A model generated the notes under the pieces. It saw nothing but the letters and a program-made list of their open reading frames with translations. It did no database searches and had not been told where the DNA came from. A stretch of 64,000 nt of DNA from Thioclava nitratireducens (GTDB taxonomy: Bacteria > Pseudomonadota > Alphaproteobacteria > Rhodobacterales > Rhodobacteraceae), in NCBI RefSeq assembly GCF_001940525.2, contig NZ_CP019437.1, positions 357,501 to 421,500 on the forward strand, in the 5' to 3' direction. Positions 59,046 to 63,932 of this stretch are shown piece after piece; the stretch's first letter is position 1, and every line of letters begins with the position of its first letter. The position numbers were made by a program, and so were the translations under genes.

Positions 59046-59609
59046 ATGAAAGCTCTGAGCCTGATCCCGCTATGCCTCCTGGGCCTCGCGGCCTGTTCCG
59101 ATCCCGAGAAGATCGCACGCTATCCGATCGACCCGCCGACCGCGGAAAAGGCGCTGCCGAACCGGCTTGGCCGGGCCGAACTGCGCGAGGTGTCGCTTCC
59201 GGACTACGCGGGCGGACAGGAGATCGCCTTCCAGACCCCCGACGGGGCGCTGCGCTCGAACCCGGACAACCTCTGGGCGGATGATCCCGCGCGTTCGGTG
59301 ACGCTGGCGCTGGCGCGGCAGATTTCGTCTCTCTCCGGCGCGACGGTGATCTCCGAGCCGTGGCCGCTCGCCGATCCGCCCACGCGCAAGATCGAGGTCC
59401 GGATCGAGCAGATGCTGCCGGGCGCCGATGGTCTGCTGCATGTCTCGGGCGTCTATTTCGTCTCGGCGAACGGCTATGAGCGCAGCGGCGAAACGGTGCG
59501 TCGGTTCGATTTCACGGTGCCGGTCGGCTCTCAGGAACCGCAGGCCATCGCAAAAGCGAACAGCGCGGCGGTGACGCAGCTTGCGCGGCAGATCGCTCAG
59601 CTACGCTGA
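59046..59609 (+). CDS. pqiC: PqiC-like outer-membrane lipoprotein
   Basis: PqiC is the outer-membrane lipoprotein (DUF330 family) that links the PqiB tube to the outer membrane. The 187-residue protein has a lipoprotein signal, MKALSLIPLCLLGLAAC, with acylated Cys17, followed by about 170 residues of mixed fold. I use the ATG at 59046, six bases after AGGAG; ATG 59040 lies directly next to it. Its 3' end overlaps the convergent flavin reductase by 13 bases. Confidence 0.9.
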   Translation: MKALSLIPLCLLGLAACSDPEKIARYPIDPPTAEKALPNRLGRAELREVSLPDYAGGQEIAFQTPDGALRSNPDNLWADDPARSVTLALARQISSLSGATVISEPWPLADPPTRKIEVRIEQMLPGADGLLHVSGVYFVSANGYERSGETVRRFDFTVPVGSQEPQAIAKANSAAVTQLARQIAQLR

Positions 59610-60160
59610 TCGGGAAGGAACCGCCCGAACTGGCCGCCCGCAAAGAGCAGCGGATCAGTCCCTGCGCCTTTAACGAAGCGGGTGACGCGGCCGATGATGA
59701 TCGTGTGATCGCCGCCGTCGTGGCGCGCCTCGGTGACGCATTCGAACCGGGCGAGCGTGTCGTCGATCAGCGGTACACCGGCCGCGTTCAGCCTGTAGGA
59801 TAGCCCCTCGAACCCCTCGCCGCGCTTCGTGAACCGCTTTGCCAGCGCTTCCTGATCGTAGCGCAACACATGCACCGCGAAGGCATCGGTTGCAGTGAAA
59901 TGCGCATGCCTGAACGAGGAACGCGCAGCCGACCAAAGGATCAGCGCCGGATCGAGCGAAACCGAGGCGAAGCTGTTCACCGTCATCCCGACGGGCTCCG
60001 GCGTATCGTCATGCGCGCAGGCGGTGACGACGGTCACACCGGTCGCGAACTGCGCGAGCGCATCGCGCAACAACCGCGTATTCGCCGGATCGGGCTGGTG
60101 GCCGCGACCGTCGCTTTCGGCATGGTTCATGGCCGCTTCGATATCGTCGCTCTCGCGCAT
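59597..60160 (-). CDS. Flavin reductase-like FMN-binding protein
   Basis: The 187-residue protein belongs to the flavin reductase-like family: FATGVTVVTA near residue 36, then VGMTVNSFASVSLDPALILWSAARSS, with the FMN-binding loop, and a late HDGGDHTIIIGRV. Such enzymes supply reduced FMN to partners or act alone. I choose the ATG at 60160, seven bases after GGAG. It lies 50 bases after the doxX stop in the same direction and could be the last gene of the bufferin operon. Confidence 0.85.
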   Translation of the reverse strand: MRESDDIEAAMNHAESDGRGHQPDPANTRLLRDALAQFATGVTVVTACAHDDTPEPVGMTVNSFASVSLDPALILWSAARSSFRHAHFTATDAFAVHVLRYDQEALAKRFTKRGEGFEGLSYRLNAAGVPLIDDTLARFECVTEARHDGGDHTIIIGRVTRFVKGAGTDPLLFAGGQFGRFLPDQRS

Positions 60161-60210
60161 CCGCTCTCCTTTGCGCTCACACATAATCGTGCAGGCGGGG
60201 AGAGCAAGGC

Positions 60211-60678
60211 TCAGCGTTCCAATCCAAGGAGCTTGTCGAAAGAAAGCCGCCCGGGGCCCTTCATCAGAACCGTCAGAAGCGCGATTGCCCAAAGCCCATG
60301 CGTCACCCATGCGCTGGGATAGACGAAGATCTGGATCACCAGCGTCATTGCCAGAAGCGCGAGCGCTGCAAGTCGGCTGCCAAGGCCGAGGATCAGCAGA
60401 AGTGGGAAGAAATGCTCCGAGAATGTCGCGAGCACCGCCGCCCATTGATGCGGAATGAGGGGCAGGTCGTATTCGTATTGAAAGAGGGTGAAGGTGGAAT
60501 CCTTGATCATGAACCCTTCCACCTTCGTCCGCCCGGACATCCAGAACACCATCGCTGGAAAGAGCCGCGCTCCGATCAGAACAATCTCCTCCGGTAGGCG
60601 CTGGGCTAGATCGGAAAACCTATGATACAGCCTGAATAGACCCTGTTTTGACGTTTTGATCTCGATCGCGTCGGTCAT
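60211..60678 (-). CDS. DoxX-family membrane protein of the bufferin operon
   Basis: The 155-residue protein has four hydrophobic helices and the DoxX pattern ([22 protein letters not shown], then [36 protein letters not shown]). DoxX proteins often accompany bufferin genes, where they may provide a redox or export function; this is not shown. It overlaps bufC by four bases (ATGA). Confidence 0.9.
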
Positions 60679-61448
60679 GAGGCGTCTCCTTTTTCGATGC
60701 CCGCGCCGACGATCAGCGCATTCTCCAGCAGCAGCAGAAGCGCTGCGTTGAGGTCAAAATCCGCTCCCGCGCGGTCTTGTGCGCGGGCGACGGTTTCGCC
60801 TGCACACAGGGTCGAGATGAAGCGACCGGTCGAGCTACGAACGACGGACGTGATTACATGAGCGATCCCGCGCCGCGCAATCAGCAGTGTCTCCGGCCTC
60901 CATTCGGTCGCCCGCGGTGGAGCGGGGCCACCTGGTTGTTGCGAGGCCCAGATCGAACCCGCAGGCGTCAGGAGCTGAAGAACCTGCACCGACGGATGCA
61001 GATCGAGACACAGATGAGTGCCCGCGCGTTTGGCTGTCTCTTGCAGGCATTCCCGCGCAATAGGCTCTGAATCGGCTGCGTGATAGGCCCGGCTGCGCGC
61101 CCATTCGATGCGGGCGACGTCGGGCAGATAGCTTAGCGATTGCAGCGAAGGTTCATCTGCCAGATAGGCCGGAAACGCGCCGCCCCATTCGGTCAGAACG
61201 GGCGTGTGCGGCGGGTGCTCGGCGATATAGGCCCGGGCGAGCCCCCTGAAGCAATCCGCGCCAAGAAGCCGCTCGATCGCCGGGAAATGCCGCGCGAGGG
61301 CCTGTGTCAGCCCATGCGCCACGTTGTTGCGGTAAACGTCGAAGCGGCGCTCGATCTCGGCTGGATCTTGGGCGGTAGCGTTTTGCGGCGCGGGCCCTCC
61401 GGCCAGGCCCTCGCGGAAACCGCGGGCGAAGTCACGATGCGAGGGCAT
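60675..61448 (-). CDS. bufC: DUF2063 partner protein of the bufferin operon
   Basis: The 257-residue protein has the DUF2063 amino-terminal domain ([63 protein letters not shown]). BufC-like proteins partner the DUF692 enzyme and bring it to the peptide precursor. The ATG at 61448 overlaps bufB; a GTG at 61457 would add three residues and neither has a strong ribosome-binding site. It is joined to bufB and doxX by overlaps. Confidence 0.88.
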
Positions 61449-62274
61449 GGTGGTCACCCGACAGGATCATCGACGCACGCTCGGCCTCGGCCATTAAAGT
61501 AGCGAAGTCCGGCACGTCGTTGTCCCACTCGATAAGGCTCGGTAGCGGTCCAGTGTTAGAGACTGTTTCGGCGTAAAGCGCCCAAACCGGTTCAGCGACT
61601 TCGCGCCCGTGGCTGTCGATCAGCAGGGGCCCGGAGGGCAGCTCTTCCTCTTCATGACCTGCCAGATGGACCTCGCCGACACGGTTCAGCGGGAACGCCT
61701 CGAGATAGGCGCGAGGATCCTGTCGGTGGTTCACGCAGGACACGAAGACATTGTTCACATCCAACAGCAATCCGCAGCCGGTCCGCTGGCTGATCTCGGT
61801 CAGAAACTCGGTCTCGGGGATCTCGGAATTGTCGAAGAGTACATAGGTCGCCGGATTTTCGAGCAGCATCCGGCGGCCGAGATGCTCCTGCACCTCATCG
61901 ACGTGATCGCAGGTCAGCGCCAGCGTTTCCGCAGTGTAGGGCAGGGGCAGCAGATCGTGCATCCAGACGCCACCATGGCTTGCCCAGGCGAGGTGTTCCG
62001 AGAAGCTCTCGGGGTCGTATCGGTCGCAGAGCGCCTTGAGCCGCGCGAGGTGGTCGCGATCCAGCGGATCGGGCCCGCCGATCGAGAGGCCCACGCCATG
62101 CACCGAAAGCGCGTAGTCCGCGCGCAGCCGCTCCAGCATCGCATGCGGCATCCCGCCCGCGCCCATATAGTTTTCCGCGTGGATTTCGAAGAACCCGAGG
62201 TCCGGTTTCGTCTCTGATATGGCGGGAAAGTGCTCTGGCTTGAAGCCGAGGCCCGCTTTGCGTGGCAGTGTCAT
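61432..62274 (-). CDS. bufB: DUF692 (MNIO) peptide-modifying iron enzyme
   Basis: DUF692 proteins, now called MNIO, are TIM-barrel enzymes with two or three irons that oxidise cysteines in RiPP precursors, giving thiooxazole-type rings in bufferins. The 280-residue protein shows [31 protein letters not shown] and [10 protein letters not shown], and the metal-binding [20 protein letters not shown] and [19 protein letters not shown], then [10 protein letters not shown]. The ATG at 62274 has GGAGG five bases upstream. It follows bufA by 57 bases. Confidence 0.94.
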
Positions 62275-62331
62275 GGCAGCCTCCATGGATGAGAAAACGG
62301 GGCGCACGCCGACCGCACGCCCCGCTTGGGG

Positions 62332-62604
62332 TCACATCTCTTTCGGTTCGAGCGAGCCCATGCCGTGCGGCGTCTCGATCGAGGTGCAGGTGCCTGCCGG
62401 GACGAGTTTCCAGGCGTTGCCCTGATAATCCATAGTCGCGGTGCCGGCGCAGGTGGTGCCGGGGCCGGCGGCGCAATCGTTCTGCCCGGCCATCGCGACG
62501 CCGTAGCATTTCTCCATCGCCTGATCTTCGGCATGGGCGGCGCTGGCCAACCCCATCGCGCAGGTCAGAGCAGCGGCAAAGCCAAGGGTAGTTTCGGTCT
62601 TCAT
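62332..62604 (-). CDS. bufA: Bufferin precursor peptide (DUF2282)
   Basis: This 90-residue protein has a signal peptide ending AHA (residue 25) and a mature part with four cysteines at residues 33, 44, 52 and 73 (EKCYGV, QNDCAAG, TTCAGT, PAGTCTS), the pattern of DUF2282 bufferin precursors. In Caulobacter such peptides are secreted to the periplasm, modified by DUF692 enzymes and bind copper. The Cys residue 15 is inside the signal. AGGGAG lies upstream of the ATG, and a sigma-F-like promoter about 50 bases before it. Confidence 0.93.
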
Positions 62605-62650
62605 GGTAGTCTCCCTGATTGGTTGGGGCCTCTTGCGGCCCTGATCACCG

Positions 62651-62676
62651 TTCGCGAGAGGTCACGGCGTCGTTAC
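62651..62676 (-). promoter_or_regulatory. Sigma-F-like promoter of the bufferin operon
   Basis: On the minus strand GTAACG (62676-62671) is followed after exactly 16 bases by CGAA (62654-62651), close to the GTAACC-N16-CGAA motif I recall for Caulobacter sigma F. Start of transcription would be near 62643, leaving a leader of about 40 bases before bufA. Confidence 0.65.
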
Positions 62677-62719
62677 GATGCTCACGCCAGCGTGAAGAAA
62701 AAAGTTTTTCGCTCCGGCT

Positions 62720-62745
62720 GTAACGAAGGCATGATCGCGAACGAA
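62720..62745 (+). promoter_or_regulatory. Sigma-F-like promoter of the sigma factor gene
   Basis: GTAACG (62720-62725), 16 bases, then CGAA (62742-62745): the same motif and spacing as upstream of bufA, on the other strand. It would drive the sigma and anti-sigma genes themselves. The -10 element is only nine bases before the first ATG. Confidence 0.55.
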
Positions 62746-62754
62746 GGGACGGCG

Positions 62755-63306
62755 ATGATGCATGATCGGCGGGCAGATTGGTCGCAGCTCCTGCGGGCTG
62801 CGAATGCGGGCGACAAGCGCGCCTATGGCTTGTTCCTGCAAGCCGTGACCCCCGTGCTTCGCTCGGTGGTGCGGTCGCGTGGCGGAGGGTTGTCAGAGGC
62901 TGATTGCGAGGACGTTGTGCAGGAGGTTTTGCTCGCCATCCATCTGAAGCGTCACACTTGGCGCGAAGATGAGCCTGCTGCGCCGTGGTGTTACGCAATC
63001 GCCCGGCACAAGGTGGTCGACGCCTTTCGCAAACGCGGGCGACGTTTCCATCTTCCGGTCGAGGACTTCGCCGAGGTGCTGCCCGCCGCGCCTGAGGCGG
63101 ATCCTACAGAAAAGGCCGATATAGAGACGTTTTTGACCCATCTGGAGCCCCGCGCAGCGCAACTGGTGCGCGCTATCGGGCTCGAAGGGAAAAGCATCGC
63201 GGAAACTGGCGATGCGTTAGATATGAGTGAGGGAGCGGTGCGGGTCATGCTGCATCGTTCGTTGAAAAAACTGGCCGCGCTTCGCGAGAGGCTGATCGAG
63301 ATATGA
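62755..63306 (+). CDS. sigF: ECF RNA polymerase sigma factor (SigF type)
   Basis: The 183-residue protein has the sigma-70 region 2 (RAANAGDKRAYGLFLQAVTPVLRSVV ... DCEDVVQEVLLAIHLKRHTW ... PWCYAIARHKVVDAFRKRGRR) and region 4 with a helix-turn-helix (LEGKSIAETGDALDMSEGAVRVMLHRSLKKL). It is followed with a four-base overlap by an NrsF-type anti-sigma factor, the pairing known for sigma F in Caulobacter. Start: ATG 62755 or 62758, in frame. A sigma-F-like promoter lies just upstream, suggesting autoregulation. Confidence 0.9.
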   Translation: MMHDRRADWSQLLRAANAGDKRAYGLFLQAVTPVLRSVVRSRGGGLSEADCEDVVQEVLLAIHLKRHTWREDEPAAPWCYAIARHKVVDAFRKRGRRFHLPVEDFAEVLPAAPEADPTEKADIETFLTHLEPRAAQLVRAIGLEGKSIAETGDALDMSEGAVRVMLHRSLKKLAALRERLIEI

Positions 63307-63932
63307 AGACCGAAGACCTGATATCCGTATTGCAACAGGACACGTTGCACGAACCCCGCCCGAAACAGGTGCTGGGCCGCTGGCTTGTGCCGGCGCTTTT
63401 CCTGTCAGCGCTGTTCGTGATTTCGGTCTATGGTTTGCGGTTTCCGCTGCAACAGACCCTTATGACGCCGGAAATCGCCCCGAAATTTTACCTGCCGCTG
63501 GTCTTGGCCGTGCTCGTGACGCCGATGGCAGTGCGCCTGGGGCAGCCCACGGCGAAGGTGTCGACCGGGTGGCTCTGGATCTTCCCGGCACTCGGCGCCG
63601 CGCTTTTGGCCTATGCTTACCTGACCACGCCCGACGGGCAGCGGATGGCGGATTTCAAGGGAGAGACGATCCTGCCCTGTCTGATCTCCGTTCCGATGCT
63701 GTCCTTCCCGGCGTTGGGCGCGCTTCTCGTGAGCCTGCGCAAAGGGGCGGTGACGCGCCCGGCGCGGGCCGGGGCGCTCGCGGGGCTCGCCGCCGGAGGA
63801 ATGGGTACCGCGATCTACGCCTTGCACTGCACCGAGGACAGCCCGCTTTTCTACGTCACGTGGTATGGCGCGGGGATCGTCGTCGTGATGCTTGTGGGTG
63901 CTTTGCTCGGGAAGCGCGTGTTGCGCTGGTAG
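63303..63932 (+). CDS. nrsF: NrsF-family (DUF1109) anti-sigma factor
   Basis: The 209-residue membrane protein has six helices and the DUF1109 ending LHCTEDSPLFYVTWYGAGIVVVML. It has only two cysteines, Cys126 and Cys176. The spacing of 50 matches what I recall for the two cysteines needed for metal sensing in Caulobacter NrsF (Cys131 and Cys181). The amino-terminal cytoplasmic part would hold the sigma factor at the membrane. The ATG overlaps the sigma stop (ATGA). Confidence 0.92.
   Translation: MKTEDLISVLQQDTLHEPRPKQVLGRWLVPALFLSALFVISVYGLRFPLQQTLMTPEIAPKFYLPLVLAVLVTPMAVRLGQPTAKVSTGWLWIFPALGAALLAYAYLTTPDGQRMADFKGETILPCLISVPMLSFPALGALLVSLRKGAVTRPARAGALAGLAAGGMGTAIYALHCTEDSPLFYVTWYGAGIVVVMLVGALLGKRVLRW

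Follow-up and report, generated by a model that had tools for sequence, protein, structure and literature searches.

Gene content of the cassette

The window analysed here is a 64,000-nucleotide stretch of Thioclava nitratireducens (contig NZ_CP019437.1 of assembly GCF_001940525.2, positions 357,501 to 421,500), and all coordinates below are counted from its first letter. Between positions 60211 and 63932 it holds six open reading frames (ORFs), with doxX, bufC, bufB and bufA on the minus strand and sigF and nrsF on the plus strand, the two groups being transcribed divergently. The bufA gene (62332-62604) encodes a bufferin-1 precursor (Pfam DUF2282, 5.5e-27) and is followed on its strand by bufB (61432-62274), encoding the MNIO (DUF692) bufferin maturase (Pfam MbnB_TglH_ChrH, 9.6e-108), bufC (60675-61457), encoding the DUF2063 partner of the MNIO enzyme (Pfam DUF2063, 4.4e-24), and the operon's final gene, doxX (60211-60678), encoding a DoxX-family membrane protein (Pfam DoxX, 4.6e-16). 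On the opposite strand, sigF (62755-63306) encodes an extracytoplasmic function (ECF) sigma factor (Pfam Sigma70_r2, 4.2e-11; r4_2, 3.6e-10) and nrsF (63303-63932) a membrane anti-sigma factor of the DUF1109 family (Pfam NrsF, 1.7e-49). Coding regions overlap by 4 nt at bufC/doxX, by 4 nt at sigF/nrsF and by up to 26 nt at bufB/bufC, where bufC starts with GTG and an in-frame ATG lies 9 nt downstream. The bufA-bufB gap measures 57 nt, and the divergent starts of bufA and sigF are 150 bp apart.

All six products exceed the curated Pfam cut-offs, and every ORF lies where the initial annotation of this DNA had placed it. The Pfam comparison which that annotation had proposed gave DUF2282 for BufA, DUF692 for BufB and DUF2063 for BufC, all above cut-off; its reading hinged on a DUF692 match at 61432-62274, and that match is the one at 9.6e-108. 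The NCBIfam profiles add resolution: BufB scores 389.6 bits against a cut-off of 310 for 'MNIO family bufferin maturase' (MNIO_BufB), and the sigma factor 222.7 bits against a cut-off of 198 for PRK12512. The equivalogs HvfX (for DoxX), HvfC (for BufC) and AntiSigF_NrsF (for NrsF) matched below cut-off only, and the same profile search returned no match for BufA. Among solved structures, BufB matches the DUF692 protein 3bww (4.6e-44) and MbnB chains (best 2.1e-12), while BufC and BufA have no significant sequence match. A DUF2282 precursor with a Sec signal peptide and four cysteines, an adjoining MNIO maturase and a DUF2063 partner are the features by which Buf1 clusters are recognized, and all are present. 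Judged by its gene families, the cassette is a complete bufferin-1 cluster joined to a pair of sigma F and NrsF genes.

BufA precursor and its cysteines

BufA contains five cysteines, of which C15 lies within the signal peptide and C33, C44, C52 and C73 in the mature part. By hydropathy, a hydrophobic stretch spans residues 5-25, followed by an AHA-type cleavage site that was judged by eye. The four mature cysteines, spaced 11-8-21, are kept in every one of the 102 BufA stretches that were aligned; 90 of these share the spacing and the other 12 have 11-7-21. A thiooxazole is formed from one cysteine and the neighbouring backbone, and cysteine spacing therefore does not choose the rings. The initial annotation had read the spacing correctly, but its further claim that the spacing defines which rings can form does not agree with the published chemistry of single-cysteine thiooxazoles plus one disulfide. 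Published statements here and below come from excerpts of the papers cited. In Buf1 bufferins the modification sits on the central cysteines, and a disulfide joins the outer pair (PMC12452194, figure legend), the modification being given as thiooxazole (PMC12452194, table; PMC13097082), and copper binding has been reported (PMC12452194; PMC13097082).

It is conceivable that export takes place without modification of BufA, which would then chelate copper by plain thiols, with the MNIO enzyme acting on another substrate. The chemistry in this host rests on analogy, and a census includes BufA genes with no linked MNIO gene (PMC12452194). However, BufB scores above the bufferin-maturase cut-off and shares an operon with the precursor, and the host genome holds a single MNIO match and a single DUF2282 match, both within the cassette; we consider unmodified export highly improbable.

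SigF, NrsF and the predicted divergent promoters

By its partner gene and promoters, SigF is ECF16-like. As in ECF16/NrsF systems, a six-helix DUF1109 anti-sigma gene follows the sigma gene directly, with a 4-nt overlap. The AlphaFold2 model of NrsF (mean predicted local distance difference test score 93) has six long helices preceded by a short one at the N-terminus; by hydropathy alone five regions pass, and the fifth helix (153-173) is visible in the model only. Cysteine C126 is kept in 59/59 relatives and C176 in 57/59, with histidine in the other two. Given alternating helices and an N-terminus placed inside, both cysteines would lie on the periplasmic side in this model. NrsF scores 84.8 bits against the Caulobacter NrsF equivalog NF042994 (cut-off 300), which makes it a member of the family and not an equivalog. 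A comparison of the model fold with solved structures yielded 172 matches, none significant at E <= 0.001, and thus no mechanism can be drawn from the fold.

Two predicted sigma F promoters of the form GTAACG-N16-CGAA flank the divergent gap, one for bufABC-doxX on the minus strand (62651-62676) and one for sigF-nrsF on the plus strand (62720-62745). An ECF16 promoter motif is thus found ahead of both the sigma gene and its target. The published consensus sequences are GTAACC-N16-CGAA for Caulobacter sigma F (PMC3511200) and (T/C)GTAAC-N17-CGAA for ECF16 (PMC8315932). The sigF promoter ends 9 nt before the ATG, predicting a near-leaderless sigF message.

The relatives analysed were the best 80 of 556 confirmed, a set of close relatives and not a census. 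Forty of these, together with nine further loci from the family, have adjacent divergent sigF and bufA genes and formed the promoter sample, in which the window is not counted. The pattern GTAAC-N16-18-CGWA occurs on the sigF side in 48 of the 49, on the bufA side in 44 and on both in 43, against 0.24% per strand in dinucleotide shuffles. Its -10 part was widened from CGAA to CGWA after the data had been seen, the narrower form having missed loci with tandem bufA genes; with CGAA only, the same 49 loci give 28 on the sigF side, 31 on the bufA side and 23 on both, with a shuffled rate of 0.2%. Among Hyphomicrobiales loci with two bufA genes, all 11 checked (L049-L052, L054-L057, L063, L065 and L075) carry GTAAC-N17-CGTA in at least one direction. 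The CGTA form is not exclusive to tandem-bufA loci and also stands ahead of sigF in, for example, L006, L018 and L030. From the end of the sigF promoter to the residue-1 position the distance is 7-35 nt in 48 loci, and 7-19 nt in 45 of them. In four further loci (L039, L041, L042 and L044) sigF lies downstream of the operon. Another 35 have no sigF in the stretch covered, in some cases because the contig ends, and the motif is still found upstream of bufA in 10 of these. Since both promoters fit the sigma F consensus known from the literature and are conserved, the bufferin operon and sigF-nrsF probably form one autoregulated unit.

Extent of the regulon

A genome-wide sigma F regulon called from the consensus was considered and rejected. 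In the host genome, GTAACS-N15-17-CGAA has 27 matches, two of them the module's own, against 47 for a reversed control pattern, and the consensus alone therefore carries no genome-wide signal. The GTAACA variant gave no match in the host genome; GTAACT and a CGTA -10 element were not searched genome-wide. Of the other 25 sites, six have an N16 spacer, and a crude ORF picker placed 11 ORF starts within 350 nt downstream of the 25. The Pfam scan took in nine of these ORFs, passing over the two in L102 and L103 that lie antisense to long ORFs; the nine gave a DUF3576 protein, an NAD-dependent epimerase, an L,D-transpeptidase and six with no Pfam family. By this crude check none of the nine belongs to a metal-related family. 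With no other motif match ahead of a recognizable metal gene, the regulon may hardly extend beyond the module. The sole match at the MsrP-like locus of the host has a 14-nt spacer, which is too short.

Distribution among relatives

Thioclava belongs to the Rhodobacterales. The closest titled relative among the best 80 is Thioclava sp. JE_KL1, with the same gene order and a BufB 96% identical. Within the genus, BufB is found in 14 of 16 genomes, the host included; in all 14 the best locus carries both promoters together with an 8-14 bp stem between bufA and bufB. Loci L122, L123 and L124 concern two same-genus genomes whose only bufferin cassette is diverged in sequence (BufB 55-59% identical) and a second cassette copy in one genome (L124 in G104), which has neither promoter and shows a bufA-like match on the opposite strand.

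Among 100 genomes sampled from the family, MNIO was found in 72, DUF2282 in 72 and NrsF in 16. Coordinates read by eye place an MNIO gene within 5 kb of NrsF in 12 of the 16, on another contig in one (G076) and nowhere in three. In these last three (G026, G032 and G043; loci L015, L017 and L016), which have an NrsF match and no MNIO match, sigma F probably serves other targets.

A flavin reductase gene (59597-60163, minus strand) lies 47 nt downstream of doxX. Of 15 genus loci, some being cut at their ends, 10 have it beside the cassette; among the best 80 relatives it was seen there solely in L022. We regard it as probably outside the module.

Hairpin between bufA and bufB

In the 57-nt gap between bufA and bufB, a hairpin with a perfect 14-bp stem occupies positions 62295-62327 on the minus strand, 4 nt past the bufA stop codon, and is followed by TCTC. 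We propose that it sets the ratio of precursor to enzyme. An Rfam scan of 62200-62800 returned nothing at E values up to 1. We did not find the bufA-bufB hairpin in print, although the founding 2024 PNAS bufferin paper, which lay outside the search, may mention it.

Comparison across loci began from 89 bufA-bufB gaps, including that of the window (L002). An early folding-energy test had 48 of 80 gaps beating each of 15 shuffles, and a strict terminator filter, requiring a hairpin and a T tail, passed 31 of 89 gaps and 12% of shuffles; this filter mixed long gaps and was replaced by a test of stem length. Nine gaps outside 40-140 nt were dropped, leaving 80, of which 69, the window included, have an uninterrupted stem of at least 8 bp. 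The same test found such stems in 1 of 49 bufA leaders, 10 of 80 bufB coding pieces and 6 of 53 bufC/doxX junctions. Setting apart seven loci titled as gamma- or betaproteobacterial left 73 gaps as the alphaproteobacterial set, in which loci titled only 'Proteobacteria' stayed. In this set 67 of 73 gaps have the stem, against 21 of 63 control gaps, which were other same-strand gaps from the same loci taken by a crude ORF picker (Fisher p 3e-13, relatedness ignored). The gamma- and betaproteobacterial gaps have 8-bp stems in 2 of 7, and none of the seven reaches p 0.05.

These counts could merely reflect the GC richness of the gaps, or a feature common to operons in general and unconnected with any ratio. 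A third of the control gaps (the 21 of 63) carry stems despite a lower GC content (0.59, against 0.65 in bufA-bufB gaps), and the loci are related, so the counts are not independent. The hairpin of the window is in itself unexceptional in energy, which tells against our proposal: its folding energy has a z of -1.61, with 11 of 200 shuffles as good, and a separate window energy test had 2 of 15 shuffles as good. Across relatives the evidence for the stem is nevertheless strong, and the excess persists when composition is controlled. In shuffles that keep composition, p 0.05 is reached by 59 of 73 bufA-bufB gaps and 8 of 63 controls, and among gaps with a GC content of at least 0.60 the stem is found in 56 of 60, compared with 11 of 35 controls. 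Once the window and gaps that are nearly identical are taken out, 60 of 65 remain. The 67 stem-loops comprise 66 different sequences, starting at a median of 9 nt past the bufA stop, and within the genus an A-T pair in L118 and L121 stands where L119 has G-C. In loci with two bufA genes the stem is present in 2 of 14 gaps between the copies and in 9 of 12 length-range gaps after the second copy, although gaps between tandem copies are often shorter and would hold fewer chance stems. On balance we find the by-product explanation doubtful.

Downstream of the stem-loops, T rises to 0.39-0.45 at positions 3-5 over a background of 0.19, and 35 of the 67 have at least three T within the first 8 nt. 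The composition control supports the existence of the hairpin and is silent on its function; as a leaky terminator or a stabilizer, the hairpin may raise BufA over its enzymes. In Caulobacter, copper raises bufA and bufB by similar factors (PMC8224329), which lends no support to an excess of BufA; fold changes do not report transcript ratios, and these values neither show nor exclude such an excess. Tentatively, and as a real possibility, we suggest that in alphaproteobacterial bufferin operons a conserved hairpin of divergent sequence separates the maturase gene from the last precursor gene. Acting as a partial terminator or by stabilizing RNA, it would give BufA in large excess over BufBC. 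Combined with the two autoregulated promoters, it would make the locus a homeostat in which copper uptake by the product switches the sensor off.

Comparison with known systems

The closest described counterpart is that of Caulobacter, where sigma F controls CC3254-CC3257, NrsF is a negative regulator and the promoters are shared (Kohler et al. 2012; PMC3511200). By published description, the likeness covers the six gene families in one cluster, the promoter consensus and the two conserved NrsF cysteines. Caulobacter differs in having a second paralogous DUF2282/DUF692/DUF2063 operon and a YedY/MsrPQ target (PMC3511200; PMC8224329), whereas in T. nitratireducens we found one cassette and, by motif, no MsrP-like target. 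Copper induces all six Caulobacter genes, by log2 values of about 4-6 in M2G medium, and the sigF mutant grows poorly with copper (PMC8224329).

Sinorhizobium meliloti, of the order Hyphomicrobiales, has the same layout under RpoE7, with the divergent ECF16 pair rpoE7-ecfR7 facing the four-gene operon SMb20530-SMb20527 and predicted GTAAC...CGAA motifs on both sides (PMC6180224). The Buf1, or captophorin, clusters share the core of BufA, MNIO, DUF2063 and DoxX (PMC12452194; PMC13097082), and in a 2025 census sigma and NrsF genes occur in Buf1 and not in Buf2 clusters (PMC12452194). We see no difference in kind from these clusters, and the excerpts of the two papers make no mention of a bufA-bufB hairpin. 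In Brucella, BcrS/AbcS likewise pairs an ECF16 sigma factor with a DUF1109 anti-sigma factor having two conserved cysteines, at a TGTAAC/GCGAAA promoter, but its target is the MsrPQ-like hypochlorite operon bcrXQP, a bufferin operon not being mentioned in the excerpt (PMC8315932). The initial annotation had described a closed unit of sensor and buffer in a different order of alphaproteobacteria, which implies that it was new there. The unit is probably right; the implied novelty does not hold, given Caulobacter, S. meliloti and the census. The cassette is an ordinary member of a published kind, and the hairpin is its sole fresh detail.

Signal and proposed mechanism

For this host the metal signal of the initial annotation is a candidate: Cr, Cd and Cu act as inducers in Caulobacter (PMC3511200; PMC8224329), but S. 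meliloti showed no increase with H2O2, Cd or chromate (PMC6180224). Oxidants such as hypochlorite or oxidized thiols might be the signal instead of copper; copper binding would then be secondary, and BufA or DoxX would have a sacrificial or redox role. In Brucella, Bradyrhizobium and Azospira, ECF16/NrsF systems respond to hypochlorous acid or reactive oxygen species, and Msr repair genes are targets that they have in common (PMC8315932). The Caulobacter sigF mutant is reported to be impaired in stationary-phase oxidative stress resistance (PMC8224329), and the NrsF cysteines would suit thiol oxidation. Yet all six Caulobacter genes are induced by copper, and the regulon is not induced by agents that generate reactive oxygen species (PMC3511200). 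As described above, the host shows no Msr target by motif. An oxidant signal thus seems unlikely to us.

We think it very probable that the locus is a complete bufferin-1 (captophorin) cassette which regulates itself in the way known for Caulobacter sigma F, working as follows. SigF would be kept at the membrane by NrsF until periplasmic copper, or another thiol-reactive stress, perturbs NrsF via its two cysteines and frees SigF, which would then start transcription of both sigF-nrsF and bufABC-doxX at their divergent GTAACG-N16-CGAA promoters. The hairpin after bufA would end or protect part of the transcripts, so that more BufA is produced than of its enzymes. Ahead of Sec export, BufB and BufC may oxidize C44 and C52 to thiooxazoles, and the C33-C73 disulfide would form in the periplasm. 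By binding Cu(I), the mature peptide would lower free copper and allow NrsF to recapture SigF. The genes, the conserved cysteines, both promoter motifs and the hairpin are observed in this DNA; sigma F control, copper induction, thiooxazole chemistry and copper binding are carried over from relatives and may be expected here by analogy.

Several observations weigh against this scheme. Loss of sigF, CC2906 or CC3255 does not lower Caulobacter viability under dichromate or Cd (PMC3511200), and the S. meliloti promoters gave no increase with H2O2, Cd or chromate (PMC6180224). Coupling to sigma/NrsF is a minority arrangement in the family, with NrsF near MNIO in 12 of the 72 MNIO genomes. Every step in this host, including expression and chemistry, the BufA excess and the feedback reset, is one that we infer.

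The analysis places a complete sigma-controlled bufferin cassette in Thioclava. It suggests that the Caulobacter circuit, promoters included, has been kept as one module in relatives from the Rhodobacterales and Hyphomicrobiales. If the hairpin does set the ratio, it would explain, in a way open to direct test, how one promoter could supply both a peptide required in bulk and enzymes required sparingly.

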